Positions 9,053-48,583 of a DNA stretch of 64,000 nucleotides are shown here, piece by piece. How positions within the stretch are numbered: position 1 is the stretch's first letter; each line of letters starts with the position of its first letter. A model generated the notes under the pieces. The model worked only from the letters and a program-made list of their open reading frames with translations. It made no database searches and was not told the DNA's origin. The position numbers and the translations under genes were made by a program. Origin of the DNA: Neoroseomonas terrae (GTDB taxonomy: Bacteria > Pseudomonadota > Alphaproteobacteria > Acetobacterales > Acetobacteraceae); assembly GCF_018129025.1 (NCBI RefSeq), contig NZ_JAAEDI010000009.1:62001-126000 (forward strand), given 5' to 3'.

Positions 9053-9344
9053 CACGCCACCCGCGCGCGCGCCGCGCTTGTCAGGCCGCGCCGCAGCGGC
9101 CAGCATGATTGGAACCACGCGGTCCGGCCCCGGCCGGGCCGCGTTCCGCCCACGGCCCGGCGTAGCGGCGGGCGGCGCCCTTCCAGGCCCCGCCTTCCCG
9201 GAATCGGTGCGGGGCCGGTCCGGGGATCAGGGAAACGACGTCCAGGAAAGGTTGGGATCAGCCATCGGGTGCCGCGCGGCGTCCGCCTTGCACGTGACGC
9301 AAGGCCGGCGCCCGCCCGGTGGCCCGCACCCGAACGGAGTCCTC

Positions 9345-10508
9345 ATGCCGGCCTGGCTACCGCTGCTGCTCGGCTTCCTGACCGCGGTCGGACCGATCTC
9401 GACCGACATGTACCTGCCCGCCTTCCCGGCGATCGAGGCGGAGCTCGGTACCGCGCGCGGCAGCGTCGAGATCACCCTCGCCGCCTGGTTCGTCGGCCTG
9501 GCCATCGGCCAGCTCGTCCAGGGCACGCTCGCCGACCGGCTCGGCCGCCGCCGGCCGCTGCTGATCGGCACCGCGATCTACACCATCGCTTCCGCCGGCT
9601 GCGCCATGGCGACCGACATGCCGACCCTCGCCTTCTGGCGCTGCGTCGCCGCCTTCGGTGGCGCGGCCAGCGCCGTCATCCCGCGCGCCATGGTCCGCGA
9701 CCTCGCGGACGGCCTCGGCGCCGCGCGGCTGATGTCCAAGCTCATGCTGGTCATGGGCGCGGCCCCGATCCTGGCACCGAGCCTCGGCGGCCTTCTCCTC
9801 GGCGCCGGCGGCTGGCGCACGATCTTCTGGTTCGGCGTGGCCTATGGTGGCCTGTCCTGCCTGCTAGCCTGGCGCCTGCTCCCGGAAACCCTGCCGCCGG
9901 AGTTCCGCGCCCGCCGCTCCTTCGTGGCGCTGCTGGCCGATTTCATCCAGATCGCCCGCGAGCGTAGCTTCATCACCCACTCCCTGATGGGCGCGGCCGC
10001 CATGTTCTCTGTCTTCGCCTTCATCGGCGGGGCCCCCGGCGTCTACATCGAGCAATTCGGCGTCAACCCGACCTATTTCGGGCTGCTCTTCGCCATCAGC
10101 GCGACGGGCTTCATCGCCGCCTCCCAGCTCAACCCGTTCCTGCTGAACCGGTTCGGCGCCGAGCGCGTCCCCGCCTACGCCCTGCGCGCATCCGCCGTGG
10201 CCGTTGCCGTGCTGGTCACCGCCGCCGTCTCCGGTATCGGCGGGCTGCTCGGCATCTTCATCCCGGCCGCCGTCGCGATCGCCGTCATGGGCCTCGTCTT
10301 CCCCAACGCCGCGGTCGGCGCACTGTCGCGCCACCCGGCCCGGGCCGGCAGCGCCTCGGCATTGCTCGGCACGCTGCAATTCAGTTGCGCGGCACTGGGC
10401 AGCGCACTGGTGGGGGCGCTGGCCGATGGCACGCCGCGGCCGATGGCATTGCTGATGGTGGCCGGGACGGCGGTCGCGCTGGCAGCGGAGAGGCTGCGGC
10501 CGCGGTGA
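9345..10508 (+). CDS. MFS multidrug exporter, Bcr/CflA type
   Basis: 387 aa, 12-TM major facilitator. The Bcr/CflA signature STDMYLPAFPAIEAEL is at residues 18-33, followed by motif A (GTLADRLGRRRPLL). Drug:H+ antiport across the inner membrane is the family role. The 290 bp upstream hold no recognisable gene. The coding end at 10508 marks the edge of the core-like segment: 30 bp further lies a hairpin, then the serine recombinase remnant, whose minus-strand reading frame runs on into this gene in antisense. Confidence 0.9.
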   Translation: MPAWLPLLLGFLTAVGPISTDMYLPAFPAIEAELGTARGSVEITLAAWFVGLAIGQLVQGTLADRLGRRRPLLIGTAIYTIASAGCAMATDMPTLAFWRCVAAFGGAASAVIPRAMVRDLADGLGAARLMSKLMLVMGAAPILAPSLGGLLLGAGGWRTIFWFGVAYGGLSCLLAWRLLPETLPPEFRARRSFVALLADFIQIARERSFITHSLMGAAAMFSVFAFIGGAPGVYIEQFGVNPTYFGLLFAISATGFIAASQLNPFLLNRFGAERVPAYALRASAVAVAVLVTAAVSGIGGLLGIFIPAAVAIAVMGLVFPNAAVGALSRHPARAGSASALLGTLQFSCAALGSALVGALADGTPRPMALLMVAGTAVALAAERLRPR

Positions 10509-31194: not shown

Positions 31195-32265
31195 ATGAAC
31201 ACTTCGGTATCGGAACGGGGCCGACGCGTGTCGGCCGGTGCCTCAGTCCGAGCCCGCGCGCCGCTACGCCTGGGGCTCGCGGGCGGTGGAACCGACGTCT
31301 CGCCCTACGCCGAGCTGTATGGCGGCGCGGTGATGAACGCGACCATCGATCGTTACATCTACGCGAGCGTCGCCATCGCCGAAGACGGCGAAATGCATTT
31401 TGAGAGCCACGACCTAGGTTACGCTGAGACCGTTCCCGCCACGACGCTGCTGCCGCTCGACGGCCCACTCGGCCTCCACAGGGCCACGTGCAACCGCGTC
31501 ATCGCGGATTACTGCGGTGCGCGCCCGATCCCGCTGAGCATCAAGACATTCTCCGAAGCACCCCCGGGATCCGGCCTCGGCTCATCCTCCACCCTCGTCG
31601 TCGCGATGGTCCAGGCGCTGGCCGAACTGCTTCACCTTCCGCTCGGGGAGTATGACGTCGCGCGCCTCGCCTACATGATCGAGCGCGAGGATCTCGGCCT
31701 GGCGGGCGGTCGGCAGGATCAGTTCGCGGCGACCTTCGGGGGCTTCAACTTCATGGAATTCCGCGGGCACGACGACGTCATCGTGAACCCGCTGCGCATC
31801 CGGCGCGATATCATCAACGAGCTCGAATCGCGCACGATCCTCTGCTTCACGGGCGTCAGCCGTGATAGCGCGAGCATCATCGCGGAGCAAGCGAGCAATG
31901 TGCAGCACGGCGAGTCGAAGCCGATAGAGGCGATGCATCGCCTCAAGGATGCGGCGATCGAGATGAAGGATGCGTTGCTCAAGGGCGACCTCGACGGCGT
32001 GACGCGCACGCTCTCGCAGGGCTGGTTGAACAAGCGCGACATGGCGGGCAGTATCAGCAATGCTGGGATCGAGCGTGCTCTCGAGACGGCCCTCCTCCAT
32101 GGTGCATCCGCCGGCAAGGTCTCCGGCGCCGGCGGTGGCGGCTTCATCATGTTCCTGGTGCCGCTCGACCGGCGCCGCGCCGTATGGGATGGGCTGAACG
32201 CGGCCGGCTTCCGACCCGAGACCGTGCGATACACCGCGGAGGGGGCCACCGCATGGCGGGTGTGA
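31195..32265 (+). CDS. hddA: D-glycero-alpha-D-manno-heptose 7-phosphate kinase
   Basis: 356 aa GHMP-superfamily kinase. [20 protein letters not shown] (about 23-42) and the ATP-binding [14 protein letters not shown] (about 123-136) followed by [20 protein letters not shown] and the C-terminal [13 protein letters not shown] are the HddA pattern. It phosphorylates heptose-7-phosphate at C1 (alpha) for the GDP-heptose route. First of four overlapping genes (hddA-gmhA-hddC-gmhB), with a TATAAT box upstream. L-fucose kinase-like relatives share the fold, but the neighbours settle the heptose role. Confidence 0.9.
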
Positions 32266-32846
32266 CGTTCGTCCGCGCGGCGATCACGGAGACGGCCGAA
32301 CTCCTGGCCGCGATGGCGGGCGACGACGCGCTCTGCGCGGCCACGGCGCGCGCCGTCGACGCCTGCATCGCCGCGCTGAGGACCGGCGGCAAGATCATGC
32401 TCTGCGGCAATGGCGGAAGCGCCGCCGATGCGCAGCACTGGGCGGGCGAGCTCGTCTCCCGCTTTTGCTACGATCGGCCCGGCCTGCCGGCTATCGCGCT
32501 GACCACGGACAGTTCGATCCTAACCGCCATCGGAAACGACTATGGTAACGATCGCCTCTTCGCGCGCCAGGTCGAGGCGCTGGGCACGCGGGGCGACGTG
32601 CTGATCGCGATCTCGACGTCCGGCAACTCGCCGAACGTGCTCGCGGCGCTGGAGGCAGCGCGCGCGAAGGACATCGCGACGGTCGGCTTCACGGGCCGCG
32701 ATGGCGGCCGCATGCCGGCGCTCTCCGATATCTGCATCCAGATCCCCAGCGGCAGCACGCCCCGCATCCAGGAAGGGCATGAGGTGCTGGGGCACGCCCT
32801 TTGCGCGATGATCGAGGCCGCGATCTTTCCCCGGCAGACCGTGTGA
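32253..32846 (+). CDS. gmhA: sedoheptulose 7-phosphate isomerase
   Basis: 197 aa SIS-domain isomerase converting sedoheptulose-7-P to D-glycero-D-manno-heptose-7-P, the first step of heptose synthesis. [20 protein letters not shown] (about 51-70) and [14 protein letters not shown] are the sugar-phosphate loops, and [16 protein letters not shown] has the C-terminal catalytic His. Start ATG 32253 has GGAGGGG upstream and overlaps hddA by 13 bp; the longer frame above is not needed. Confidence 0.93.
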
Positions 32847-33541
32847 TGGTGCAGGAAGCGGTCATACTGGCCGGCGGGCTCGGCACCAGGCTGCGGCCGG
32901 TGGTCACGGAGGTCCCGAAGCCGCTCGCGCCAGTGGCCGGCCGGCCCTTTCTCCATTGGCTGCTCGGCGGGCTAGCGAAGCAGGGCATCAGGCGGGTCGT
33001 TCTCGCCACCGGGTATCGCGCGGATCTCATCCGGCAATGCCTCGGCGATCGCCATGCCGATATCGATCTCGCCTACTCGCCGGAGGCCACGCCGCTCGGC
33101 ACCGGCGGCGCGCTCTGGGCGGCGCTCGCCCAGTGCCGGGAAGACCGGGTCGCCGTGCTCAACGGCGATACCTGGCTTGGCCTCGACATCGCCGCACTCG
33201 CGGGCGAGGCACCGCAGGCGGACATCGTCCTGGCGATCCGCGACGTCGCGGACCGCGCGCGCTACGGGAGCGTGCAGGCCGACGGCAACCGCCTGCTGGC
33301 GCTCGAGGAGAAGGGACTGCTCGGGCCGGGCCTCGTGAATGGCGGCGCCTATCTCGTCCGAACCGACCTGCCACGGCGGCGCCCCATGCCATCCGCCTTC
33401 GCGCTGGAGCAGGATGTGCTGGCGCAGCCGAAAGGGCTGGATATCCGGGTGCATCGAACCGCGGCGCCGTTCCTGGATATCGGCACGCCGGAGGATTTCG
33501 ACCTGGCGCAGGAACTGATCCCCCGCTGGGCTGCATCATGA
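32846..33541 (+). CDS. hddC: heptose-1-phosphate guanylyltransferase-type nucleotidyltransferase
   Basis: 231 aa. VILAGGLGTRLRPVVTEVPK (about 6-25) with PLAPVAGRPFL is the sugar nucleotidyltransferase signature; VLNGDTWLGLD holds the metal-binding Asp. HddC transfers GMP from GTP to D-glycero-alpha-D-manno-heptose-1-P giving GDP-heptose. The gene is embedded between gmhA and gmhB (one-base and four-base overlaps), which supports HddC over other nucleotidyltransferases; nucleotide preference itself is not readable from sequence. Confidence 0.85.
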   Translation: MVQEAVILAGGLGTRLRPVVTEVPKPLAPVAGRPFLHWLLGGLAKQGIRRVVLATGYRADLIRQCLGDRHADIDLAYSPEATPLGTGGALWAALAQCREDRVAVLNGDTWLGLDIAALAGEAPQADIVLAIRDVADRARYGSVQADGNRLLALEEKGLLGPGLVNGGAYLVRTDLPRRRPMPSAFALEQDVLAQPKGLDIRVHRTAAPFLDIGTPEDFDLAQELIPRWAAS

Positions 33542-34119
33542 CCGGCCGGGTCGCGCTTTTTCTGGATCGCGACGGCGTGATCAATGACGATTCAGGCTAC
33601 GTCTACCGTATCGAGGATTTCCGCTTTCGCGACGGCATCTTCGATCTGTGCGCGGCCGCGCAGGCAGCCGGGTTGTCGCTGGTCGTAGTGACGAACCAGG
33701 CAGGCATCGGGCGCGGCTACTACACGGAGGCCGATTTCCATCGCCTGACGGAATGGATGTTGGCGCAGTTCCGCGACCGCGGCATCGCGCTGGCGGGCGT
33801 CGAGTTCTGCCCCGACCACCCCGATCACGGCATCGGCGCCTACCGAAGAGACAACCCGCGCCGCAAGCCTGGTCCGGGCATGATCCTGGACGCCTGCGCC
33901 CGGATGAGGATCGATGCACGATCGTCGCTGATGATCGGCGATCGTGCCACCGACATGCTGGCGGGGCGCGCAGCCGGTATCGGCACGCTGATCCTGATCC
34001 CCGCCGACCGGGCCGAGGCGGATGCCGCACCGCCGGATACGATCGTCCTTCCCGACGACGATCTGCTGTCTGCGGCCGATTACTTCCCTCGCAATGCCGC
34101 GAAGGCGCCGCAACGATGA
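33538..34119 (+). CDS. gmhB: D-glycero-D-manno-heptose 1,7-bisphosphate phosphatase
   Basis: 193 aa HAD-family phosphatase. The catalytic motif FLDRDGVIN has Asp10 and Asp12; VTNQAGIGRG (51-60) and MIGDRATDMLAG complete the HAD motifs. Canonical GmhB has a zinc loop with one His and three Cys; here only CPDHP (Cys91, His94) remains and the second pair of cysteines is replaced by RRDNPRRKPGPG, so zinc binding is probably lost. Overlaps hddC by four bases (ATGA). Removes the 7-phosphate of heptose-1,7-bisphosphate. Confidence 0.9.
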   Translation: MTGRVALFLDRDGVINDDSGYVYRIEDFRFRDGIFDLCAAAQAAGLSLVVVTNQAGIGRGYYTEADFHRLTEWMLAQFRDRGIALAGVEFCPDHPDHGIGAYRRDNPRRKPGPGMILDACARMRIDARSSLMIGDRATDMLAGRAAGIGTLILIPADRAEADAAPPDTIVLPDDDLLSAADYFPRNAAKAPQR

Positions 34120-34204: not shown

Positions 34205-37200
34205 GTGAGCCAACAGATGACCGACGCCATTGCGCGCCGAAGCGCACGTACCGACGGCAACTTCGTCGTCCCCCGCCCAAGCGTTGATCTGCCCTTCACC
34301 GGCGAACGCATGACCTCCGTTATGGAGGGTCAGATCGAGTTCGAGCACTTTCACCGGTACTGCCTGGCGCGGGATCTCTGCGACGGGCTGGATGTCCTCG
34401 ATGTCGCGTCGGGCGAAGGATACGGGTCTGCGCTCCTGGCAGGCGTCGCGAAAAGCGTCGTTGGGGTCGAGATCGATCTTGCTTCCGTCGCGCATGCTCA
34501 ATCGGCCTATGGCGGCCCGACGCTCCAGTTCCTGCCGGGCGACGCCTTGGCATTGCCGATCGGCGACGCGAGCGTCGATGCCGTCATTTCCTTCGAGACA
34601 CTGGAACACCTCTCCGACCAGCCGCGCTTCATCCGCGAGGTTCGGCGCGTGCTGCGACCCGGCGGCCTGTTCATCGTCAGCACGCCGGATCGCACGGTAT
34701 ACTCGGCTCCCGGCAGCGAACCGAACCCGTACCACGTCCTGGAGCTGACGCCGTCTGAACTGGCCGGGCTGCTGGGCGCCAGTTTCCGCAACTATACGAT
34801 GCTGCAGCAACGCCCGCTGCTCGGGTCCCTCATGGCCGGTGGAACGGGGGAGAATTGGCGGAGCTTCGAACGCCGGAGCGCGGATCGAATCGAAGCGACG
34901 GCGGGATTGTCGCGCGCCCATTACCTCGTGGCGCTCGCCAGCGACGCGCCGCTGCCGGAGATCGGACCGTCCATGTACGCGGATCGGCGCCGCGTCCATG
35001 AGGTCGTGCAGGAGGCTCTGAGCGTCCCATCGCTTCGCCATGCGCTCGCTGCCGCCCAGTCGGAACTCGGAGCGGCGGAGGCGAGGCTCGACGATGCCCG
35101 GCGAGCCGATCGGGACGAGCTGCAAGCCGCCCGCCTGGAACTCGACGAAGTGCGGCGTCTCCACCAGAGCGCGCTGCAGGCTGCTCGCGCGGAGATCGAG
35201 GACGCCCGGAACGTCCAGCAGGCGGCGCTGCGGGCGTCGCGTGCCGAGATCGAAAGCCTTCGCGACGCGCATCACGCTGAACTGCAGGCGTCGGATGCGA
35301 GCCGCGCGCGTGCCGTCACCCTCGACCGCGACCTGGAGATGGCCCTGAAGGAGCGTGATTCCGCCGTCGGGATGCATGCGGCGGCGGCCGCCCAGGCCGC
35401 CAGCATCGCCAACGATCGCGATGAGGCGCAGCGCCAACTCGCGGCGTCTGAGGCACGCCGGGCGCAGACCGAGCAGGCCCTCAATGCGGTGTGGTCCAGC
35501 ACCTCGTGGCGCATTCTGGGTCCGTTCCGCCGCGCCGGCAGGCGCTTTCCTTCCACCGCGCGCCTGCTGCGCCGCGGCTTGAAGGTGGTCTGGTGGACGC
35601 TGTCGATGCAGATCGGTTATCGATACATGCTCTGGCGGCGGCACCGGAACGCGCCGCAGGCCCCCATGCCGGCGCTCCCGATGCTGCCCGGCGCGGCTGC
35701 GGCGCCGCTGAGCCCCGACCCCACGCCGATGGCGGCGAAGGATCTGCGCCTGGCCTTCCAGACGCTCCACGGCACCGCCGCGATCTACTTTCCCCCGGTC
35801 GCCGAGCCTGAAGTCTCCATCATCATCCCCGCCTACCGGCATCTGGACGAGTTGCTGACGTGCCTGCGGTCGATCAGCACCGCTCGCCAGGGGAGCCCCT
35901 CATTCGAGGTGATCGTCATCGATGACTGCCCCGAGTATCCGGTGCTGTGGGCAGTGCCGCGAAGCGGCGGCCTCCTCGGCATCGCGAACGAGGAGAATCT
36001 CGGCTTCCTTCTGAGCTGCAACCGCGCGGCTTCCAAGGCCCGCGGCCGCATCCTCTGCTTCCTTAACAGCGATACGATCGTGACGCGGGGTTGGCTCGAT
36101 CACCTCGTGCGGGCCCTGGAGGAAACGCCGCGCGCAGCGCTCGCTGGCAGCATGCTGCTCAATCAGGACGGAACCATTCAGGATGCCGGCTGGCGTATCG
36201 CGGGCAACGGCTGGGGGCACCCGCTCGGCCGCGGCACCGATGCCCAGAATGGCGCATACACGCATCGCCGCGCCGTCGACTGTGTCACCGGCGCGTGTTT
36301 CTGCGTGCCGCGCGCCGTATGGGAGGACCTCGACGGCTTCGACACCGCCTATGCGCCCGCGTTCTACGAGGAGTTCGACCTCGCCTTTCGCGCGAAGCGA
36401 AAAGGGCTCAAGGTCATCTACGAGCCGGCCAGCCGTGTTGTTCATCTCGGCAGCGCCTCCTACGGGGCGGAGCGGCGGGATGCGCTGTCCACGATCAACC
36501 ACGCGACGTTCTCCGCGCGCTTCGCCGACGTTCTGCGCAAGCAGCCCAACGATCTGTCCGACGAATTCACGATTCGCCATGCCGGCCCGGAGCGGCCGAC
36601 CATCCTGGTAATTGACCAGGACGTTCCTGTACCCGAACAGCACGCGGGCGACGTGACGATGGCGGGCTATCTGCGCATTCTCGTCGATGCCGGATGGCGC
36701 GTCGTCTTCGGACCGCATAGCGGCGTCGCCGCAGGATTGCCCTGCGAGGCGCTCGAGGCGATCGGCATCGAGATGATCCGGGCGCCGCAGACCATCGCCG
36801 GCTGGCTCGCGGCGCATGGGCGGCATCTCCGGCAGGTGTGGATCAGCCGCCCTCACCTGGCGATCGACCTGCTCGCCACCATTCGAGGTGCCACGAATGC
36901 GCCCATCGCGTACTACACGCACGACCTGCATTTCCTGCGGATGAAGCGCGAGGCCGATCTGCACGACAGCGCGGAGATGGCCGAAGCCGCCGAGCGAATG
37001 CGCTCGATGGAACTGGACGTGCTCCGGTCCGTCGATCGCGTCCTCACGCCGAGTGCGGAGGAGGGCGACATGATCGTGCGCCTGGTCCCGGCGGCCAAGG
37101 TCACGACTGTGCCGCCCTACTCCTACAAGGATCATGAAATCCGCGCGCGCAGCGCAGGGGAGTTCAATGGCCTGACCGACGTGCTGTTCGTCGGCGGCTT

Positions 37201-38422
37201 TCCCCATCCGCCGAACGTCGATGCGGCATTCTTCATCGCACGGGAAGTCATGCCGCTCGTCTGGCGCGTCCGGCCTGACGCGCGGCTGCTCCTGGTCGGC
37301 TACGCGCCACCACCCGAGGTCCAGGCCCTTGCCAGCGACCGCATCGTCGTCACCGGGCAGGTTCCAGACCTCGCGCCGTGGTTCGAGCGCTCCCGCGTCA
37401 TGCTTGCGGCGCTGCGCTACGGCGCGGGTGTGAAGGGCAAGGTCGTCGAGGCGATGCGCGCCGGCCTTCCCGTCGTGACGACCGCGGTCGGCGCCGAGGG
37501 CATCGGCATCGTGCCGGATCAGGAAGCGATCGTTGCGGAGGATGCGGCCGGGCTTGCCGCCGGCGTCCTCGCCCTGTTTGACGATCCGGCGCGCTGCACC
37601 CGAATGTCGGCGGCTGGCGCCGCACTGGTCGCCAGGCGCTTCTCGCTCGCTGCGGCACGCGCCACGGTGGATTCGCTTTTCAGCGTGCGGCGCTGCTCGT
37701 CCTGCGGCTCGACGAAGCTCGCACCACCGCCCGCGACGGGCGATGGCCGCGAATCCTTCTTCTGCCATGACTGCTTCGCCCTGGCGCGCTGCGAGGCCCT
37801 GGCCCGGGTGATCCTGGCGCGCTTTGCCCGGCAAGGCGAAACGAGCCTGCCGGAGCTGATGGCGGCGCATCCCGGATTGCGCATGCACGAGCTCGGGTTC
37901 GTCGGGGGCATCGCTGATAGCCTCCGCGGACTTCCGAACTACTCGGAATCGGAGTTCTTCTCGGATGTGCCGGTCGGCACCTCAGGCCCCGGCGGCGTGC
38001 GCTGCGAGGATGTCACGCGCCTGACCTTCGATGACGAAAGCTTCGACATCATTGTCAGCCAGGACGTGATGGAGCATGTGCCGGACCCGGTCTCGGGCTT
38101 CGCCGAAACGGCGCGGGTGCTGCGTCCTGGCGGTTCGCATTTTTTCACGGTCCCGCTTGATCCCGATCTCGATCGGAGTGCCACCCGCGCCACGCTCGGC
38201 CCGAACGGCGTGGTGCACGTGCTTCCGCCGGAATATCACGGCGATCCGGTGCGCTCCGAGGGGGCCCTTGTCTTCACCGAGTACGGCCGCGACCTGCCGG
38301 AGCTGGTCGCCCGCGCCGGTCTTCAGCTCGTTGAGCATGAGCAGGGCGTGTTCGGCGGCGACAGCCGCGCGCCCCTGCGTGTCTTCGAGGCGATCAAGCC
38401 GGCCGGCCCTCCGCCAGGTTGA
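34205..38422 (+). CDS. 1405-aa four-enzyme glycan protein: methyltransferase, coiled coil, GT2, GT4, Zn-ribbon, methyltransferase
   Basis: Starts at GTG 34205, 85 bp after gmhB. Order of parts: SAM methyltransferase (about 30-245; DVLDVASGEGYG at 63-74, ETLEHL); an Ala/Arg/Glu-rich coiled coil (about 275-428); GT2 transferase (about 535-775; VSIIIPAYRHLDELLTCLRS, FLNSDT at 619-624, YEEFDLAFR at 721-729); GT4-like transferase (about 798-1150; DVLFVGGFPHPPNVDAAFF, GAGVKGKVVEAMRAGLPVVT); a zinc ribbon CSSC..CHDC (1164-1190); and a second methyltransferase (about 1225-1400; FDIIVSQDVMEHVPDPVSGF). No SAM glycine loop is obvious in the last domain. Predicted cytoplasmic glycan-assembly enzyme that may also methylate the chain. 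Its size and four catalytic modules exceed usual transferases. Confidence 0.9.
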   Translation: MSQQMTDAIARRSARTDGNFVVPRPSVDLPFTGERMTSVMEGQIEFEHFHRYCLARDLCDGLDVLDVASGEGYGSALLAGVAKSVVGVEIDLASVAHAQSAYGGPTLQFLPGDALALPIGDASVDAVISFETLEHLSDQPRFIREVRRVLRPGGLFIVSTPDRTVYSAPGSEPNPYHVLELTPSELAGLLGASFRNYTMLQQRPLLGSLMAGGTGENWRSFERRSADRIEATAGLSRAHYLVALASDAPLPEIGPSMYADRRRVHEVVQEALSVPSLRHALAAAQSELGAAEARLDDARRADRDELQAARLELDEVRRLHQSALQAARAEIEDARNVQQAALRASRAEIESLRDAHHAELQASDASRARAVTLDRDLEMALKERDSAVGMHAAAAAQAASIANDRDEAQRQLAASEARRAQTEQALNAVWSSTSWRILGPFRRAGRRFPSTARLLRRGLKVVWWTLSMQIGYRYMLWRRHRNAPQAPMPALPMLPGAAAAPLSPDPTPMAAKDLRLAFQTLHGTAAIYFPPVAEPEVSIIIPAYRHLDELLTCLRSISTARQGSPSFEVIVIDDCPEYPVLWAVPRSGGLLGIANEENLGFLLSCNRAASKARGRILCFLNSDTIVTRGWLDHLVRALEETPRAALAGSMLLNQDGTIQDAGWRIAGNGWGHPLGRGTDAQNGAYTHRRAVDCVTGACFCVPRAVWEDLDGFDTAYAPAFYEEFDLAFRAKRKGLKVIYEPASRVVHLGSASYGAERRDALSTINHATFSARFADVLRKQPNDLSDEFTIRHAGPERPTILVIDQDVPVPEQHAGDVTMAGYLRILVDAGWRVVFGPHSGVAAGLPCEALEAIGIEMIRAPQTIAGWLAAHGRHLRQVWISRPHLAIDLLATIRGATNAPIAYYTHDLHFLRMKREADLHDSAEMAEAAERMRSMELDVLRSVDRVLTPSAEEGDMIVRLVPAAKVTTVPPYSYKDHEIRARSAGEFNGLTDVLFVGGFPHPPNVDAAFFIAREVMPLVWRVRPDARLLLVGYAPPPEVQALASDRIVVTGQVPDLAPWFERSRVMLAALRYGAGVKGKVVEAMRAGLPVVTTAVGAEGIGIVPDQEAIVAEDAAGLAAGVLALFDDPARCTRMSAAGAALVARRFSLAAARATVDSLFSVRRCSSCGSTKLAPPPATGDGRESFFCHDCFALARCEALARVILARFARQGETSLPELMAAHPGLRMHELGFVGGIADSLRGLPNYSESEFFSDVPVGTSGPGGVRCEDVTRLTFDDESFDIIVSQDVMEHVPDPVSGFAETARVLRPGGSHFFTVPLDPDLDRSATRATLGPNGVVHVLPPEYHGDPVRSEGALVFTEYGRDLPELVARAGLQLVEHEQGVFGGDSRAPLRVFEAIKPAGPPPG

Positions 38423-38489: not shown

Positions 38490-39206
38490 TCAGGGATAGA
38501 TCGAGACGACCTTGCTGTGGAACATGGTCGTCATCTTCATCGAATCGTGGTGGGCTAGCGTGTTCCGGCAAGCGTCGACGAAATGCGCGTGCCAGCCGAC
38601 GCCGACCATGAACAGCTTGTGGTGCGCATAGAGGAACGGAGCGACCCTCGGGACGCCGGCACAGAAAAGGCTGGCCGCTTGCGTGACACCAGGCCAATGC
38701 GGATGCATGAAATCGTCCAGGATGATCACGCCGCCGGACGACAGGCAATCCTCTGCGGTCCGCAGGTCCGAGAGCGTGTGTTCGACCGTATGGCAGCCAT
38801 CGACCGAGAAAAGACGAAACGGCCCGCGATCCCTGACCAGATTGACGCGATCCAGCGCCGTCAGCGCCGTGCTGTCGGTCGCGATGTAGACATGGTCGAT
38901 GTCGCACCGGCCATAGGCGGCAACGTTGCTTTTGATCTTCTCGAGGCTTCCCTCGCCGGCGCCGTCGATGTTCTTGCTCTGGTCATCGAACACGTCGAGC
39001 GCCGTCATTTTCCCGTCTGGCGGCAGCAGGCTGGCGAGCGCAATGAAGAACTTGCCGTGAAAAACGCCAATCTCCGCTCCGTGCCCGGCAATCCCGGCAT
39101 CCGCCTGAATCTGGTCGACCAGTTTGAGATAGGCGAGCAGGCCCCCATGAACCCAACCCTCGACATGCGGAAAGCCCTCACGCCAATACCTGTCGATGGC
39201 CGACAC
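38490..39206 (-). CDS. class I SAM-dependent methyltransferase (Methyltransf_24 type)
   Basis: 238 aa. GHGAEIGVFHGKFFIALASL (about 42-61) is the SAM loop, TALDVF the second strand, and RLFSVDGCHTVEHTLSDLRT with GGVIILDDF (about 157-165) the family motifs. Proteins of this group methylate sugars or their precursors in polysaccharide clusters. Start is GTG 39206 with AGGAGG six bases upstream. It is convergent with the large transferase and has a TATAAT box upstream. Acceptor unknown. Confidence 0.85.
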   Translation of the reverse strand: MSAIDRYWREGFPHVEGWVHGGLLAYLKLVDQIQADAGIAGHGAEIGVFHGKFFIALASLLPPDGKMTALDVFDDQSKNIDGAGEGSLEKIKSNVAAYGRCDIDHVYIATDSTALTALDRVNLVRDRGPFRLFSVDGCHTVEHTLSDLRTAEDCLSSGGVIILDDFMHPHWPGVTQAASLFCAGVPRVAPFLYAHHKLFMVGVGWHAHFVDACRNTLAHHDSMKMTTMFHSKVVSIYP

Positions 39207-39595: not shown

Positions 39596-41122
39596 CTATC
39601 GCCGGGTTTTCGGATGCCCTCGCGCGACCTGTTCGATGGCTTCCTGCCAGCGTGGCGCGAGGGCAGCCGGGGTGTAGAGCGCCGCCTGCCTGAGCCCACG
39701 CTCCGCCAGTTCGCCGAGATGCCCCTGGTCGCGAGGGAGTTCGGCGCTGCGGGCCAGCAGCGCCGCCAGTTCGGTCTCGTCGTAGGGATTGAAATAGTCG
39801 GCGGCCTCGCCATACACCCAGCGATGCACGGGAATATCCGACGCAAGGAGCGGAGCGCCGCACGCCATTCCCTCGACGCCGGAATAGTCGAAGCCCTCGG
39901 CCCGGCTTGGCGCGACGACACAATGGGCCATCGAGTAGAGCACGCGGAGTTCCGGTAGCGGCACGCCCGCCAGGTGGTAGGCTCCCTCCCGAACAAGCAT
40001 CTTCAGTTCGGCGAGTTCGGCGTCGGAACGCCATCCGGGATTGGCGACGATCAGGAGCTGAATCGGCTGCTTCGTCATGCGCTTCGCCATCTCGAACGCA
40101 GTGAACAGCTTCAGGTAGTTCTTCCGAGGCTCCAGCGTCGAGACGGCGATGAACAGCCGCGGCAACTCGGCGGGCTCCGGCCCGGGGCGGCGGCTGGCCG
40201 CGGTGGCGGCGCTGGCGCGGCGGGAGAGGATGGTGCGCAGTTCGTTCTGAGACCGTACATCCGGCCGGTATTCCGGAGCGACGACGGCCGGGATGGTGTG
40301 CACACGCTTCTCGGCCTCCGGGAACAGGCGAAGGACGTCTCCTCGGACCGGTTCCGAGTCGCAGTAGAGGATCGCGCCGTCCTCGATGTTCCGCTGTAGC
40401 ATCCGGCCATGGCTCAGCGCATGCGGCCACGGCTCCCCGATCGTATGGGGGCTGATTAGCGGCAGTGCATCATAGTAGCGAACGAGCTTGGCGGTATTCG
40501 GGGCGAGCGCGTAGGGGGAGACGGTGGCGGCGAAGAACACGTCCCACTCATGACTTTCGATCCTGCGCTCGAAAACGCGGGGCAGCAGCGTAAGCGACCG
40601 GGCGTATTCATGCCCCATCTCGGTCGCGTAGTACTCCGCGCGCGGAAGGATGGCACGGTCCTGGGGCGCGAGCGTGCGGTCGAACAGCTTGACCCAGAGA
40701 TAGTCGTCGAAAACCTCCGGATCGATCCGCAGGTCGAGCTTCTCCCGCCGGAACGCCTCCGTCAGCGCCAGGTACGGGCGAAACAGGCGGCGCCGGACGA
40801 AGCCCGGCAGCTGGGCGAATCCCTTTGCCCAATGCTGCCTCTTGGTGTCCTGGCTGATCAGCACTTGGGTCTGCGCGAGCACCTTCTCGTACGGGGTTCG
40901 CATCTTCGGCCGGCGCGAGGTGTAGTGGATGCCCGAGGCCAGCCCGGCGAAACGCCGCAACGGGAATTCGGAGAACATCGCGAAGAGCAGGCGCGCCTCC
41001 TGCGGGATCCCTGCAAAGCCCTCGTAGCACGGGCGCAGGTCCATCATCAGGGATGGGCCGGATTCGCGCGGGACGGTGTCGGCATTTGGCATCGGTCTTG
41101 GCTTTCGGTCCGGGATTGTCAC
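39596..41122 (-). CDS. GT4-family glycosyltransferase
   Basis: 508 aa. N-terminal acceptor domain starts with DLRPCYEGFAGIPQEARLLF, as in GT4 enzymes of EPS clusters; the donor half has LFIAVSTLEPRKNYLKLFTA (about 323-342) and APSRAEGFDYSGVEGMACGA (about 404-423), the E-x7-E motif with Glu409 and Glu417. Predicted cytoplasmic, retaining, using a nucleotide sugar. Long insert of about 100 residues (80-180) between the first strands. Same strand and 33 bp from the GT2 gene upstream. Confidence 0.88.
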   Translation of the reverse strand: MTIPDRKPRPMPNADTVPRESGPSLMMDLRPCYEGFAGIPQEARLLFAMFSEFPLRRFAGLASGIHYTSRRPKMRTPYEKVLAQTQVLISQDTKRQHWAKGFAQLPGFVRRRLFRPYLALTEAFRREKLDLRIDPEVFDDYLWVKLFDRTLAPQDRAILPRAEYYATEMGHEYARSLTLLPRVFERRIESHEWDVFFAATVSPYALAPNTAKLVRYYDALPLISPHTIGEPWPHALSHGRMLQRNIEDGAILYCDSEPVRGDVLRLFPEAEKRVHTIPAVVAPEYRPDVRSQNELRTILSRRASAATAASRRPGPEPAELPRLFIAVSTLEPRKNYLKLFTAFEMAKRMTKQPIQLLIVANPGWRSDAELAELKMLVREGAYHLAGVPLPELRVLYSMAHCVVAPSRAEGFDYSGVEGMACGAPLLASDIPVHRWVYGEAADYFNPYDETELAALLARSAELPRDQGHLGELAERGLRQAALYTPAALAPRWQEAIEQVARGHPKTRR

Positions 41123-41155: not shown

Positions 41156-43201
41156 TCACGCTTCCCACGGCCGCGCGCGGCGCGGACGGGTCAGGACGAG
41201 CGGCCCGGCCTCGGTGGCCAGCAGATTGGGATTGAGGAAGGGGTCCTCATCGAGCGCGCGTCCCCACAACTCCCGCATCAGCGACTGCTCGGCGCGGAAG
41301 CGCGCCAGTTTGGTCGCGTCGAGCGCCTCGTCGCCGCGCGTCGACAGTTCGCGATGCGTCAGGGTCGCATGCGGCGTCCAAACGACCCGCAGGCCGGCGG
41401 CGCGCACGCGCAGGCAGAGGTCGACATCGTTCCACGCGACGGCCAGCTTCTCCTGCATGCCACCGATCTGTTCGAACACCGAGCGGCGCATGGCCAGGCA
41501 GGCGCCCGTCACGGCCGAAAGGTCGCGCGTGCAGGCGAGTTGTCCGTCGTAGCCCGGATCGTCCGACCTTGCGTGGCGACCGACATGGGTCGCCGACCCA
41601 TTGGGCCCGAGCAGCAATCCGGCATGTTGAAGCCTGCCGTCCGGATAGAGCAGCTTGGCACCGACTGCTCCCACATCGGGGCGCATCGCGTGGGAGACCA
41701 TTTCCCGCAACCAATCAGGGTGCAGCGGCTCCACATCATTGTTCAGGAGCAGCAGCACCTCGCCGGTGGCGCGGGCGGCGGCGACATTGTTCATCGCCGC
41801 GAAGTTGAAGGGCTCGTGCCGGCGCAGGACCGAGGCGCGGGCTGTCGCCGCAAGCCGGTCGAGCAGCGTCAGGGCCTGCGGGTCGGTGCTGCCATTGTCG
41901 ACGATGATGAGTTCGAGCGACGGGTAATCCGTCGCCTCCAGCAGGCCGCGGATGCAGGCGGCAAGTAGCTCCGGCCGATCGCGGGTCAGGATCAGTGTGC
42001 TGACCAGCGGCGGCGGCTCCGGCAGGCGGAACCGCAGACGGGGCCACTCGCCCGGCTCGATCGAGACGAGGCCGGGGGCCTGCCGCGGCGGTGTCGTGGC
42101 GGGGGCCGGCCAATCGGTCGGCGGCGCGGACCGGTGGCAAAGAACGGCGGGGATATGCCCGACGCGGTCCACCCCGATCAGAGCCACCGCCTGCAAGGCG
42201 AGGTCATAGGCGGCGAAGGGCGCGGCGACCGGCCGCCGGACACGCCGCAGCAGGCTCGCGCGATACATCGCCAACTGGCCGATGGCATTGCCTACGAGCA
42301 GAAGATCTGCCGAGAGATCCGGCTTGAAGCGCGGAGCGCGGCGGTGGATCCCGCGGCCGACATCCTCGTCGCTGTAGACGAGTTCAAGTTCGGGGCTTGA
42401 CTGAAACGTCGCAACCACTTCCTGGAGTGCGGAGGGCGCGAGCGTGTCGCCCGGCTCGAGGAAACAGATCAGCGCCTCATCCGCAGCGGGAGGCGGCCAG
42501 GGCTGGCCGTCCGGCGACGGCGCTTTCAGGACCAGCCGCGGCTCGGCCGCCGCAGCGGCGGCCAGGGCCTGGGCGGCCCATGGTGACAGCGTCCTGGCGG
42601 CAAGGTGGAGTTGCCAATGGGGATAGCTCTGGCCCGACAGGCTTTCCACGCTCCGCAGCGCGCTTTCGATGCTCGTGTCGCTCGCGGTCATGACGATGAT
42701 TACGCCCGGTCCCGTCTGGGATGGCGGCGGAGCGATCCCGGCAGGTGCTGGCGTATCGTAGGTGGCAACCCACAGGTGATAGGCGGTATCGTCATCCGGC
42801 GGGCTGCCGGGTGCGAGGCCCGGCAGCAACGGCAGCGACGCGCGAAGCGGCGGCGAATCCGCAAGCATCGCGATGGCCTCCGCCTCGTCCGCGCCAAAGT
42901 CGATCGCCGCCTGAAGCAACCTCATCGCGGCAATGCGCTGGTCGCCGTCAAGTCCGGCGTTCGAAAGGCTGACCTCCAGGGAGATGTTCTTCGGCGCCGC
43001 TGACGGTTCCGCGCGTTGCGTGGACTCGGCAGTCGAGATGACATCGGCCGCAAGACTGCGCAATACTTCGCCCGCCTGCAGCCGCTCTACGCCCGACTGA
43101 AGTTCTGTCCTATTGGGGTCGCGTCCGAGGGCGACGCGATACAGCCGCACCAACCGCTCGCCATGCCGTCTGATCTCGGTGAGAGAGTTGAATGAAGCCA
43201 T
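41156..43201 (-). CDS. double-GT2 glycosyltransferase with DUF4214-like N-terminus
   Basis: 681 aa. Residues 14-55 (RLVRLYRVALGRDPNRTELQ) resemble the DUF4214 linker domain. A first GT2-like domain (about 165-375; VIIVMTASDTSIESALRSVE, LVYSDED at 274-280) is followed by a second, more canonical GT2 domain (about 398-650; STLILTRDRPELLAACIRGL, VDNGSTD at 434-440, LLNNDVEP, WNDVDLCLRVRAAG). The double-domain plan is common in O-antigen/EPS polymer transferases. No membrane helix. Lies upstream of and on the same strand as the GT4 gene. Confidence 0.88.
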   Translation of the reverse strand: MASFNSLTEIRRHGERLVRLYRVALGRDPNRTELQSGVERLQAGEVLRSLAADVISTAESTQRAEPSAAPKNISLEVSLSNAGLDGDQRIAAMRLLQAAIDFGADEAEAIAMLADSPPLRASLPLLPGLAPGSPPDDDTAYHLWVATYDTPAPAGIAPPPSQTGPGVIIVMTASDTSIESALRSVESLSGQSYPHWQLHLAARTLSPWAAQALAAAAAAEPRLVLKAPSPDGQPWPPPAADEALICFLEPGDTLAPSALQEVVATFQSSPELELVYSDEDVGRGIHRRAPRFKPDLSADLLLVGNAIGQLAMYRASLLRRVRRPVAAPFAAYDLALQAVALIGVDRVGHIPAVLCHRSAPPTDWPAPATTPPRQAPGLVSIEPGEWPRLRFRLPEPPPLVSTLILTRDRPELLAACIRGLLEATDYPSLELIIVDNGSTDPQALTLLDRLAATARASVLRRHEPFNFAAMNNVAAARATGEVLLLLNNDVEPLHPDWLREMVSHAMRPDVGAVGAKLLYPDGRLQHAGLLLGPNGSATHVGRHARSDDPGYDGQLACTRDLSAVTGACLAMRRSVFEQIGGMQEKLAVAWNDVDLCLRVRAAGLRVVWTPHATLTHRELSTRGDEALDATKLARFRAEQSLMRELWGRALDEDPFLNPNLLATEAGPLVLTRPRRARPWEA

Positions 43202-43498: not shown

Positions 43499-44659
43499 GT
43501 GAACCCATTGCACGCGCTCTGGCGCCGACTGCCGCGTCGTGCCCGACGAGAGGCCCTGTTTTCGACAATGGCGACCCTGGCGCCAAGCCCGGACCGCCCT
43601 GAGCCCGATGGCCACGGGTCGCTGACGGTCGCGGGCTATCTGAGCGCGTCGACGGGTCTCGGCGCCGCTGCGCGGCGTTTGAGCACGGGGCTGCGCAAGG
43701 CAGGGCTCGATCCCGACGAAGTGGATTTGACCAGCGCGCTCTGGCAAGGTCCTGCCTCGTCGGCGTCCAACGTCCAGGAAGGACCAGGCAGCATCATCGT
43801 CGCGGTCAATGGGCCGATGCTTCCTTGGGCGCTGCTGGTCCTGGGGCGACGACGGCTTCGCGGCAAGCGCATCATCGCGCACTGGAACTGGGAGCTTCCG
43901 GTGCTTCCGAGCGACTGGGATCGCGGCTTCCGCGCATGCCACGCCATTTGGGCGCCGAGCCATTTCGCCGGCGCGGCCTTTTCGCGTCCCGGTTCGCCCC
44001 CGGTCCGCATCTGTCCCCATTACGTCCCGCAACCGGACCCGGCCCCGCTTTCCCGCGCCGATTTCGGCTTGCCCGAGGATGCCTTCGTCGTGCTATCCGT
44101 ATTCGATGCGACCTCCTCGCTGGCCCGCAAGAATCCTCTTGCTGCGATTGAGGCGCATCGGGTGGCATTCGACGATCGCCCCGACCGTATCCTCGTCATC
44201 AAGACGCACAACACCCGAAGCGCAGGATCGGCGTGGCAACAGGTGCGTGAGGCGATATCGGGGCGCCCGAATATTCGACTGCTGACCGATGTCATCCCTC
44301 GTCGTGATCTGTGGGCTCTAATGCTGGCCAGTGATGTCCTAATTTCGTTACACCGCGCTGAAGGATTCGGATTCACGATCGCCGAAGCGATGGCCGTCGG
44401 CCGCGCAGTAATAGCGACCGGTTGGTCCGGCAATATGGATTTCATGCACGGGCCGGGTACCTACGCTGTGCCTTACAGTCTCGTTCCGACATATGATCCG
44501 CAGGAAACCTATGCGGTCGGCGGCGCTCACTGGGCTGAACCTGACGTCGGAACAGCGGCGTCGATCCTGAGGAGTCTGGCCCAGAAGCCGGCACACGTAC
44601 CGCAGGCTCGTTTCCCTGTGCCAGACTATCTAAATCTTCTGCGGTATTCTTCGGCTTGA
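43499..44659 (+). CDS. GT4-family glycosyltransferase (mannosyltransferase-like)
   Basis: 386 aa, GTG start at 43499 with only a weak ribosome site. N-terminal VAGYLSASTGLGAAARRLST is the GT4 glycine loop; C-terminal LISLHRAEGFGFTIAEAMAV, GRAVIATGWSGNMDFM (about 280-315) is the donor site with E-x7-E, a signature common in capsule/O-antigen GT4 enzymes. It is divergent from the double-GT2 gene with a 300-bp shared upstream region. Donor sugar not determined; GDP-mannose family sugars are available from the neighbouring genes. Confidence 0.88.
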   Translation: MNPLHALWRRLPRRARREALFSTMATLAPSPDRPEPDGHGSLTVAGYLSASTGLGAAARRLSTGLRKAGLDPDEVDLTSALWQGPASSASNVQEGPGSIIVAVNGPMLPWALLVLGRRRLRGKRIIAHWNWELPVLPSDWDRGFRACHAIWAPSHFAGAAFSRPGSPPVRICPHYVPQPDPAPLSRADFGLPEDAFVVLSVFDATSSLARKNPLAAIEAHRVAFDDRPDRILVIKTHNTRSAGSAWQQVREAISGRPNIRLLTDVIPRRDLWALMLASDVLISLHRAEGFGFTIAEAMAVGRAVIATGWSGNMDFMHGPGTYAVPYSLVPTYDPQETYAVGGAHWAEPDVGTAASILRSLAQKPAHVPQARFPVPDYLNLLRYSSA

Positions 44660-45261
44660 ACCCCATCCGGAAAGGGATTGCGTGGGTTGAATCAGTTGTG
44701 ATTCGCTGTCCTTACGGACGATTCGTGAGGATAGTCGGATGGCTTGGACGGCGGAGCAGCGACATGCGGCGGGCTGGCGCGGCTGCGATATCCCTTTCGG
44801 CTGACGAGCGCTTAATGGGCGCGGGTGGCGGGTCTTGACAATCGATGCGCGTGCGGGAGGGGTCGTGGCTTCCGATGTAGAGTCTGTCGGCGTGCGCTGC
44901 GAGATGGAGATCTCATTGGAAGGAGTATTGGCGCCTAAGCCCGCTGAGAGCGTCACCTGCTTGCGCTTGCGACGCTGGGCGCCACTCATTGGGGCGCGAA
45001 CCTTCGGGCCTCGCTCTGCCGCCAGCGCCTCCGTAGCGGGATCACCGCTCCAAGTCCGGCGCAGGATCAGAAACGCTTGATCGATCCACCACGCCTTTCG
45101 CTGGGCCATCGCGGTCGCCACGAACTTCGACTTGTGGTTCGGTTAGTGACGCTCGAGCCCAATCGCTCATTTGTGCCGCGACGTCTCGGGCGTGACGGCC
45201 GCGACAGCGTAAGCCTGGGCGGATGCGAGTTGTGCTCCAGTCTAAGCCGGATGCTCACGAG
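44660..45261. other. 600-bp stretch without a supported gene
   Basis: Only low-information frames on both strands. A short plus-strand start (MAWTAEQRHAAGWRG near 44739) vaguely recalls IS5-type transposase starts but stops at once. Probably degraded mobile DNA separating the transferases from the dehydratases. Confidence 0.4.
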
Positions 45262-46236
45262 ATGACGCGCGCGCTGATCACCGGGGTTACAGGCCAGGAC
45301 GGCGCCTATTTGGCGGCCTTGCTGCTCGGGAAGGGATATGAGGTCTACGGGCTGCTGCATCGGCATGGCGGTTCGGAGGCAGTGCAGGAGCGGCTCCGGC
45401 GGCTCAACTGCCCTGGGTCCGTCACCATGGTCGACGGCAACCTGATCGACCTGTCATCCCTGATCCGCCTGCTCGATCGCGTGAAGCCGGACGAGATCTA
45501 CAATCTTGCTGCCCAGTCCTTCGTGCGCATGTCGTGGGACCAGCCGCTGCTGACGACGCACGTGACAGCGATTGGCACGGCGAACGTGCTGGAGGCGGTG
45601 CGCATCGCCTCACCCAAGGCGCGGTATTTCCAGGCCAGCTCGTCGGAGATGTTCGGCCGCGCCCAGGGCGCGGCGCAGAGCGAGGCCGCGCATTTCCACC
45701 CGCGTAGCCCCTACGCCTCCGCCAAGGTCTTCGCGCATTGCCTGGTGCAGAATTATCGCGACGCCTTTGGCCTGTTCGGCTGCAACGGCATCATGTTCAA
45801 CCATGACAGCCCGCTGCGTGGCATCGAGTTCGTGCTGCGCAAGATTACCGACGGCGCGGCGCGCATCAGCCTGGGCCTCGCGACCGATCTGCCGATGGGC
45901 AACCTCGATGCGCGGCGGGACTTCGGCCATGCGCGCGACTACGTCCAGGCGATGTGGCTGATGTTGCAGCAGGACGCACCAGACGACTACGTGGTCGCGA
46001 CCGGACGCGCGGCATCGATCCGCGACCTGTGCCGCATCGCCTTCGCGCATGTCGGGCTGGACTTCGAGAAGCATGTCTGCGTCGATCCCGCTTTCCTCCG
46101 CCCCGCGGATGTGGACGTGACGGTCGGCGATCCAACGCATGCGAAGGACAAGCTCGGCTGGACGGCGGAAACCAGCCTGGAAGCCATGATCGCGGAGATG
46201 GTGGAGGCTGACTTGGCACGCTGCAGAGCGGGGTAG
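45262..46236 (+). CDS. GDP-mannose 4,6-dehydratase homologue (possible GDP-heptose dehydratase)
   Basis: 324 aa short-chain dehydrogenase. The NAD(P) loop is TGVTGQDGAYLAALLL; ASSSEMFG holds the Ser/Thr and the catalytic Y-x3-K is in SPYASAKV; NFRD-like NLDARRDFGHARDYVQAMWL is the GMD block. It is clearly diverged from the canonical gmd at 47492. Since the operon upstream makes GDP-D-manno-heptose, this copy could be a GDP-heptose 4,6-dehydratase (DmhA/WcbK type); alternatively a GDP-4-keto-6-deoxymannose-processing enzyme. ATG 45262 is preferred, with an alternative start at 45223. Confidence 0.85.
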   Translation: MTRALITGVTGQDGAYLAALLLGKGYEVYGLLHRHGGSEAVQERLRRLNCPGSVTMVDGNLIDLSSLIRLLDRVKPDEIYNLAAQSFVRMSWDQPLLTTHVTAIGTANVLEAVRIASPKARYFQASSSEMFGRAQGAAQSEAAHFHPRSPYASAKVFAHCLVQNYRDAFGLFGCNGIMFNHDSPLRGIEFVLRKITDGAARISLGLATDLPMGNLDARRDFGHARDYVQAMWLMLQQDAPDDYVVATGRAASIRDLCRIAFAHVGLDFEKHVCVDPAFLRPADVDVTVGDPTHAKDKLGWTAETSLEAMIAEMVEADLARCRAG

Positions 46237-47491: not shown

Positions 47492-48583
47492 ATGTCAGAT
47501 CACCGTAAGGTCGCCCTCGTCACCGGCATTACCGGCCAGGACGGCTCCTACCTCGCCGAGCTGCTGCTGGCGAAGGGGTACGAGGTGCATGGCATAAAGC
47601 GCCGCTCCTCCTCCTTCAACACCGGCCGGATCGACCACCTATACCATGACCGGCACGTCCCGGGTGCGTCCTTCCGCCTGCATCACGGCGACCTCACCGA
47701 CGCGACCAACCTGATCCGCATCATGGGCCAGGTGCAACCGACTGAGATCTACAACCTCGGAGCGCAGTCGCACGTCGCTGTGTCCTTCGAGACGCCGGAA
47801 TACACGGCGAATTCGGATGCGCTCGGCACGCTGCGCATGCTTGAGGCGATCCGCATCCTCGGCATGGGGAAGACGGCGCGCTTCTACCAGGCCTCGACCT
47901 CGGAGCTGTATGGCAAGGTGCAGGCCGTGCCGCAGGACGAAACCACGCCCTTCTACCCGCGCAGCCCCTATGCCGCGGCGAAGCTTTATGGCTACTGGAT
48001 CGTAGTTAACTACCGCGAGGCCTACGGCATCCACGCCTCCAACGGCATCCTGTTCAACCATGAGAGCCCGCGCCGCGGCGAGACCTTCGTCACCCGCAAG
48101 ATCACGCGCGCGGTGGCAGCGATCAGTCTCGGACAGCAGGATTGCCTCTACCTTGGCAACCTCGATGCGCGGCGCGACTGGGGCCATGCGCGGGATTTTG
48201 TGGACGGCATGTGGCGCATCCTCCAGCAGGAGCAGGGCGATGATTATGTGCTCGCCACCGGCGAGACTTACACGGTGCGCCACTTCTGTGAACTCGCCTT
48301 CGCGGAGGTCGGCATAACCATCGACTGGCGCGGAGAAGGCGTGAGCGAGACCGGCACCGGCAAGGAGGCCAGGAAGGTTGTCGTGCGGGTCGACCCTGCT
48401 TATTTCCGCCCTACCGAGGTCGATTTGCTGATCGGCAATGCCGCCAAGGCGAAGCGAGTGCTCGACTGGTCGCACACCGTCAAGCTCCCCGAACTGGCAT
48501 CAGAGATGGTCGCGGCCGACATTGCGGAGCTAAGGACCACGGCTGATTCATCGCACCGCATCTGCCAGCGGCGACAAGCGTGA
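47492..48583 (+). CDS. gmd: GDP-mannose 4,6-dehydratase
   Basis: 363 aa, full-length. [20 protein letters not shown] (NADP loop), [18 protein letters not shown] (family block), [11 protein letters not shown], then [20 protein letters not shown] with the catalytic Tyr/Lys, and [20 protein letters not shown]. Converts GDP-D-mannose to GDP-4-keto-6-deoxy-D-mannose, precursor of GDP-rhamnose, GDP-fucose or perosamine. GGGAGG lies 9 bp before the ATG. No reductase (rmd, fcl) or transaminase (per) lies next to it in the window. Confidence 0.94.

Follow-up and report, generated by a model that had tools for sequence, protein, structure and literature searches.

A predicted single-chain polymerase-spacer-terminator protein with a GT2-GT4 pair and two methyltransferase-like domains beside GDP-heptose genes in Neoroseomonas terrae

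The window analyzed here is a 64,000-nucleotide (nt) stretch of DNA from Neoroseomonas terrae, and its subject is a single gene on the + strand (34205..38422) that encodes a protein of 1405 residues. From its N-terminus onward, this protein features a methyltransferase (MT1), a long helix resembling a coiled coil, a basic anchor-like segment, glycosyltransferase (GT) modules of the GT2 and GT4 types, a zinc ribbon built on four cysteines and, last, a second methyltransferase-like domain (MT2). Pfam, alignment and predicted structures agree on this layout, confirming the order of modules that a first-pass annotation of the same DNA had given, and the GDP-heptose genes directly upstream uphold the link to heptose that it had drawn. 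Because of its likeness to published systems, the role judged most likely, and held with moderate confidence, is that of a single-chain polymerase-spacer-terminator that works at the membrane on a surface glycan containing D-glycero-D-manno-heptose.

Architecture of the 1405-residue protein

The open reading frame (ORF) spans exactly 34205-38422, with a GTG start and no internal stop. An alternative ATG at 34217 would yield 1401 residues, and because the database copy of the protein (P0002) has 1401 residues, matching that ATG, the true start may lie there, 12 nt downstream of the GTG. A chance ORF or a frameshift artifact is ruled out by database copies, conserved motifs and two structure models. 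Structure prediction, which had been proposed as a check, yielded models of MT1, GT2, the long helices, GT4 and a methyltransferase-like C-terminal half.

MT1 is an N-terminal class I S-adenosylmethionine (SAM) methyltransferase (residues 43-259, 34331..34981) with the motif I DVASGEGYG, and it contains the better of two Methyltransf_11 stretches that Pfam recognizes in the protein (65-158, E 5e-37). The coiled-coil-like spacer follows (residues 264-431, 34994..35497), low in proline plus glycine (0.018) and 31% charged, and is modeled as helices of 92 (264-355) and 70 residues (362-431) between MT1 and the GT modules; GT2 and GT4 both lie C-terminal to the coil within the one polypeptide. MT1 thus precedes both helices, in the place of a terminator at the distal end of the coil, in a model that contains a break. 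The predicted local distance difference test score (pLDDT) is mostly 88-98 in the MT1 and GT2 blocks, with some at 70-80, and averages 90.6 over the half that holds GT4 and the second methyltransferase-like domain; it is lower in the coil, with blocks mostly at 73-81 and a break below 50 at residues 351-361.

Within the coil lie five approximate 18-residue repeats (residues 281-370, 35045..35314), detected as protein self-similarity at an offset of 18 (z 5.5, equaled by 0/500 shuffles); a tandem repeat at the DNA level over the coil was looked for and none was found. Among 34 sequences including the query, the interval from MT1 to GT2 ranges from 161 to 552 residues (274 in the query). In an internal-repeat scan of these 34 coils, in which heptad patterns alone also raise the scores, eight reach 0/500 shuffles (P0001, P0003, P0005, P0012, P0026, P0027, P0031 and P0038, the query being one of the eight), three reach 1-4/500 and 23 lie above that. 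The best repeat units of the eight are 11, 14, 18, 21, 42 or 49 residues long, and an 18-residue periodicity was rejected as a general feature of the coil, given that only 8/34 score at 0/500 and that their units differ. Judged from sequence, coil length seems to change partly through internal duplication, as that of a length-critical spacer might.

The coil passes into a basic, partly amphipathic segment (residues 431-485, 35495..35659) with a net charge of up to +7 per 18 residues, a hydrophobic moment of up to 0.50 and an SxSWRxLxPxR motif that is present in most relatives, and this segment may well associate with the membrane. The GT2 module (residues 514-780, 35744..36544; Glycos_transf_2 538-657, E 2e-16) has seven residues, D573, D574, N621, D623, E722, E723 and D725, that are invariant in 28/28 aligned sequences, a count that includes the query. 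A fold search found GT2 to resemble polymerizing enzymes, namely K4 chondroitin polymerase and GlfT2, among others. The GT4 module (residues 796-1160, 36590..37684; Glyco_trans_1_4 992-1127, E 2e-23) is related to the TIGR03087 family.

The cysteines of the ribbon, C1164, C1167, C1187 and C1190 (37694..37774), are likewise invariant in 28/28 and would be expected to bind zinc. MT2 (37775..38419) is identified by the second Methyltransf_11 stretch and by its predicted fold. It features a conserved HExGFVGGIA-like variant of motif I in place of the classical Gly-rich SAM loop, and Methyltransf_11 matches it only from profile position 40-47 of 95 (seen in P0024, P0040, P0045, P0046 and P0051); for both reasons, SAM binding by MT2 is a presumption. 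The same 28 sequences all keep E1229, G1231, G1234 and D1281 in the MT2 region. Of the key GT and SAM-site residues whose loss the first-pass annotation had named as a point against its proposal, the seven in GT2 are invariant, and in MT2 the classical loop is replaced by a variant motif.

Heptose genes, relatives and module exchange

The established route to GDP-D-glycero-alpha-D-manno-heptose proceeds via HddA, GmhA, HddC and GmhB. All four genes are encoded on the + strand together with the GT gene, in the order hddA-gmhA-hddC-gmhB, and apparently form a complete set, with HddA named by its PDB matches and the others by family and gene order. The heptose phosphate kinase gene hddA (31195..32265; Pfam GHMP_kinases) encodes a protein whose best PDB match is 4usm, a "putative sugar kinase" (E 1e-104), followed by the D-glycero-D-manno-heptose 1-phosphate kinase 3k85 (E 9e-103). 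The next gene, gmhA, for a sedoheptulose-7-phosphate isomerase with a SIS domain (32253..32846; SIS_2, E 2e-29), has its ATG at 32253 and shares 13 nt with the end of hddA. A TGATG junction with a 1-nt overlap leads to hddC, for a heptose-1-phosphate guanylyltransferase of the NTP_transferase family (32846..33541; PF00483, E 3e-20), and a 4-nt ATGA overlap leads to gmhB, for a heptose bisphosphate phosphatase of the HAD type (33538..34119; Hydrolase_like, E 8e-12). From the end of gmhB there are 85 bases to the GTG of the large gene and 97 to its ATG.

A protein search gave 164 matches among 7999 scored candidates, and the listing comprises 120 of them, including the window's own copy. Among the other 119 listed homologs, 115 share the GT2-GT4 core and 33 the full order MT1-GT2-GT4-zinc ribbon-MT2, which rules out a unique architecture and leaves no support for the idea that sequence databases seldom contain this order. 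Among the named sources are Roseomonas, Falsiroseomonas and Rhodovarius, and the proteins are labeled "methyltransferase domain-containing protein." A scan of 59 genomes (our own, 34 of the same genus and 24 of the same class, with at most ten candidates scored in each) found some match in 56, in most cases to one domain only. In the listed matches, full-length coverage comes from the own genome alone, the next best (G023, same genus) covering residues 14-1160 at 42%.

The surroundings of relatives were compared across 38 loci, 33 from named genomes and five from same-genus genomes. Heptose genes adjoin relatives in 14/38 of them, a count in which three loci (L031, L042 and L049) have no more than an HddC-like match and a 57-bit nucleotidyltransferase match in L055 is left out, and a Wzm/Wzt-like pair adjoins relatives in 7/38; several flanks are short, and some loci encode more distant forms or just the GT2-GT4 core. 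The Rhodovarius locus L029 has its five-module gene flanked on one side by an opposite-strand gene for Wzt with Wzt_C and on the other by a wzm ORF, with which it shares a 4-nt overlap. The same-genus locus L082 groups genes for Wzm, Wzt and HddA with an MT2-like gene and a gene for a 1106-residue MT1-coil-GT2-GT4 protein, all on one strand within ~10 kb and interrupted by a single ORF on the opposite strand. Its MT2-like gene (8780-10345), upstream of the MT1-coil-GT2-GT4 gene, encodes a separate 521-residue protein in which two methyltransferase stretches match MT2. Because MT2 is fused in the window protein and split off as a gene in L082, gene arrangement supports its belonging to the same pathway as the rest. 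Wzm/Wzt also stand beside a Methyltransf_24-RgpF-GT2-GT4 protein in L086 and, as a pair with Wzt_C, beside a more distant protein containing GT2 and GT4 in L085. HddA was looked for in 22 genomes including our own, and the match is strong (E 2e-79 or better) in 16, weak in five and absent in one.

The core itself appears with different N-terminal enzymes. A tree of 143 complete cores, reduced to 122 rows, was built by a quick method (LG+G4 without mixture), and after 22 of the 122 rows lacking a recognized N-terminal enzyme were left out, the remaining 100 comprised 71 with MT1, 23 with a pyruvyltransferase-like domain and six with Methyltransf_24. All three could modify the end of a chain. 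Across the tree, there are at least 15 switches of the N-terminal enzyme, and the zinc-ribbon domain, which 65 rows have and 57 lack, changes at least 14 times. These counts stand without a shuffled-label control, and truncated metagenome fragments may contribute to them by inflating the rows with a short N-terminus or no zinc domain. Cores up to 76% identical bear differing N-terminal enzymes. The pyruvyl label was assigned by a phmmer search with part of P0051 as query, and Pfam gave no confirmation of it for P0024. Some relatives have an FkbM domain after MT2, and P0045 has radical-SAM/SPASM domains. The GT2-GT4 core also occurs with radical SAM/SPASM and B12-binding domains (precomputed Pfam) in P0086, P0087, P0089 and P0093, part of a group of 2135-2274 residues, and L041 8621-15445 (2274 residues) is probably of the same kind. 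Another combination of a methyltransferase with glycan synthesis is the Methyltransf_24-RgpF-WbsX fusion at L083 3995-7291, in a same-genus genome.

Elsewhere in the own genome (L081 5948-12488, corresponding to C14:111948-118488), two tandem genes share an N-terminal cassette. Each encodes an FkbM methyltransferase, a coil and an SxxWRxxxPxR segment, followed by GT4 or GT4-GT2. The shared cassette starts at a common start codon and extends over at least 513 residues with four residue differences and 7/1539 base differences, identity stopping at about residue 522, and its coil has an internal 18-residue repeat (z 8.4, 0/500 shuffles). From sequence, the pair looks like a recent duplication or conversion of the cassette, with an assembly fault as a further possibility.

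Other glycan genes lie downstream of the large gene in the window. Convergent with it is a separate Methyltransf_24 family methyltransferase (38490..39206, - strand; Pfam E 7e-13), of the family that forms the fused N-terminal domain in P0040, P0045 and P0046. A GT4 glycosyltransferase (39596..41122, -) belongs to the same cluster as proteins encoded beside relatives in L032, L033 and L050, and a 681-residue protein containing GT2 (41156..43201, -) has homologs beside relatives in ten other named-genome loci and in L086, making it a possible partner of the large enzyme. Further on are a GT4 glycosyltransferase (43499..44659, +), a short-form GDP-mannose 4,6-dehydratase-like protein (45223..46236, +; best PDB match 1rpn Gmd, E 9e-115, vs. 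E 7e-36 for the reductase 2pk3) and a GDP-mannose 4,6-dehydratase (Gmd; 47492..48583, +; best PDB match 7kf3, E 2e-157). The first-pass suggestion of deoxyhexose as an alternative to heptose rests on these two dehydratase-like genes, 7-10 kb downstream. An assignment as GDP-heptose 4,6-dehydratase is unsupported for either, as 7us5 matches the first at E 5e-33 vs. 9e-115 for Gmd and is not among the matches listed to 1e-60 for the second. About 2 kb past the end of the window lies an O-antigen ligase family gene (Wzy_C; L071 5915-7135, C9:127915-129135), and close to it is a further protein whose C-terminal domain is MT2-like (L071 8385-10322).

Proposed function and its alternatives

In the favored reading, GT2 and GT4, beside the basic anchor-like segment, would lengthen a lipid-linked chain in the cytoplasm, presumably from GDP-heptose among its donors. 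MT1, at the distal end of the coil, would methylate the non-reducing end once that end reaches it, thereby stopping growth, and finished chains would be exported by an ABC transporter and then ligated. MT2, at the polymerase end, would most likely methylate the chain or a repeat sugar and not act as a cap. This departs from the first-pass annotation, in which both methyltransferases were terminal caps, a claim that sits poorly with the position of MT2 and with the separate MT2-like gene in the same-genus locus. Its WbdD-like idea that one chain could extend, measure and cap a polymer gains some support by analogy, from the ABC exporter genes in 7/38 loci and from characterized enzymes that share this logic. 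On the whole, the earlier interpretation survives in part.

Several observations weigh against this reading, most of all those concerning the exporter. The cap-reading domain expected of a WbdD-type system was not found in the own genome: Wzt_C (PF14524) gave 0 matches there (G000, completeness 98.27%) and was missing from 19/22 genomes searched, our own included and the set being the one examined for HddA; it was found in the other three. The genome does encode a Wzm/Wzt-like pair, on contig C8 away from the large gene and near a GT4 gene (L076 6606-8181, C8:12606-14181), which is a candidate exporter for this glycan and lacks the cap-reading module. In the available part of PMC11231755, all examples of terminated O-polysaccharides carry a carbohydrate-binding module on Wzt, and where such a module is missing, length is described as being set through the coupling of extension and export (PMC10629545, in part). 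In this strain, either the cap would be read otherwise, or export coupling would set the length with MT1 as a decorator, or another exporter would serve. Because Wzt_C is lacking here, the protein is kept out of the cap-gated class and is only likened to a polymerase-spacer-terminator; beside relatives, Wzt_C is present in L029 and L085. Linkage is also incomplete, in that the flanks examined hold no heptose gene in 24/38 loci and no Wzm/Wzt pair in 31/38, and the five-module genes of L030, L032 and L033 have neither nearby. Within the protein, the low-confidence break at 351-361 means that the modeled coil could fold back and not extend, and the top fold matches of GT2 are to GalNAc-T2, a non-polymerizing type of enzyme. 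No kinase domain accompanies MT1: the Pfam matches up to an E of 0.1 include none, and the gap between MT1 and the helix is four residues. No chain named WbdD occurs in the 43 matched PDB sequences or in the best 60 of 73 for the profile; GT2 enzymes and other methyltransferases took up the fold-match list, and MT1 may yet resemble WbdD in fold.

A bolder possibility, put forward tentatively, is that a portable cassette of cap, repeat-built coil and membrane anchor has been swapped before heptosyl polymerase cores, the caps being methyl, pyruvyl-like or others, with MT2 marking the chain while it is being made and, in this strain, length controlled without a cap-reading exporter. If so, one polypeptide would write, mark, measure and cap its product. 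A rather doubtful rival is that GT2 and GT4 polymerize as in the favored reading but MT1 and MT2 both methylate every repeat, with the coil as a mere scaffold or for oligomerization and coupling to export setting the length. Such decoration would suit the lack of Wzt_C in the own genome and in its C8 pair, the separate MT2-like gene of L082, length control by extension-export coupling in systems lacking a cap-reading module (PMC10629545, in part) and the methylation by WsaE, which in vitro is independent of chain length (PMC2943079, in part). It fits less well with the fusion of MT1 beyond a long helix and not adjacent to the GTs, and with the Wzt bearing Wzt_C beside a five-module relative (L029) and beside the distant GT2-GT4 protein (L085).

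Transfer of just one residue is common among GT2 and GT4 enzymes, and the GT pair could add a fixed short heptose-containing unit, as an adaptor, a lipopolysaccharide core or a glycoprotein glycan, that the methyltransferases finish without any polymer. The O-antigen ligase family gene 2 kb past the window and the further GT genes beside the protein would agree with this, but the Wzm/Wzt genes in 7/38 loci and the long, variable coil better suit export of a polymer, and we regard a short product as unlikely. Least probable is a partly defunct fusion in which MT1 alone is active and MT2 has a structural or sugar-binding role. In the five scanned homologs, the Pfam match to MT2 is confined to the second part of the domain, whose motif I is not canonical; against this, the invariance of its cysteines and of its four conserved residues in 28/28 sequences indicates that the domain is under selection. 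Returning to the polymerase-spacer-terminator reading, if it is correct, the published terminator-ruler principle would extend to heptose-linked glycans. The relatives show that the N-terminal enzyme, which probably caps, is naturally swapped on a single conserved GT2-GT4 core, and these swaps, together with the natural range of coil lengths, would allow a direct test of whether polymer length depends on the length of the coil and the chemistry of the cap, and of whether length control requires a cap-reading exporter.

Comparison with known systems

The closest published counterparts are all described here from the available parts of their sources. ORF6 of Klebsiella pneumoniae O7 (1414 residues; PMC11231755) shares an N-terminal methyltransferase, a central coiled coil and two C-terminal GTs, but has a kinase with its methyltransferase and two GT2 modules that use dTDP-rhamnose, whereas the window protein has no recognized kinase, pairs GT2 with GT4, ends in a zinc-ribbon methyltransferase and is encoded beside heptose genes. 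WbbB of K. pneumoniae O12 likewise unites polymerization, spacer and termination in a single polypeptide, although its beta-Kdo cap is added by a GT and its modules are GT99, GT102 and GT103 (PMC11231755). In WsaE of Geobacillus stearothermophilus, an N-terminal O-methyltransferase is fused to two rhamnosyltransferases and the gene overlaps wzm/wzt; it differs in serving an S-layer glycoprotein rhamnan and, in the portion of the source at hand, in having three active domains and no second methyltransferase (PMC2943079). The WbdD/WbdA systems (Escherichia coli O9a and K. pneumoniae O3/O5) share a methyl or methylphosphate cap at the far end of a ruler coil and a membrane-associated amphipathic region, but their terminator and polymerase are separate and the O3/O9a type has a kinase as well (PMC11231755). 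The replacement of MT1 by a pyruvyltransferase-like domain in core relatives recalls the pyruvyltransferase WbbZ of K. pneumoniae O1. Terminal pyruvate has been described, and candidates for pyruvate-based termination have been named as unproven (PMC10629545), with which the domains of these relatives would fit by analogy.

No description of this module order was found in the part of the open-license literature covered, and nothing on a heptose-linked methyltransferase-GT fusion appeared there in titles and the starts of abstracts. The kind of protein is known from the published polymerase-spacer-terminators WbbB, O7 ORF6 and WsaE; what is new is the module order as described, the second, C-terminal methyltransferase, the GT2-GT4 pair, the link to heptose, the natural swaps at the N-terminus and the apparently duplicated cap-coil-anchor cassette elsewhere in the genome.

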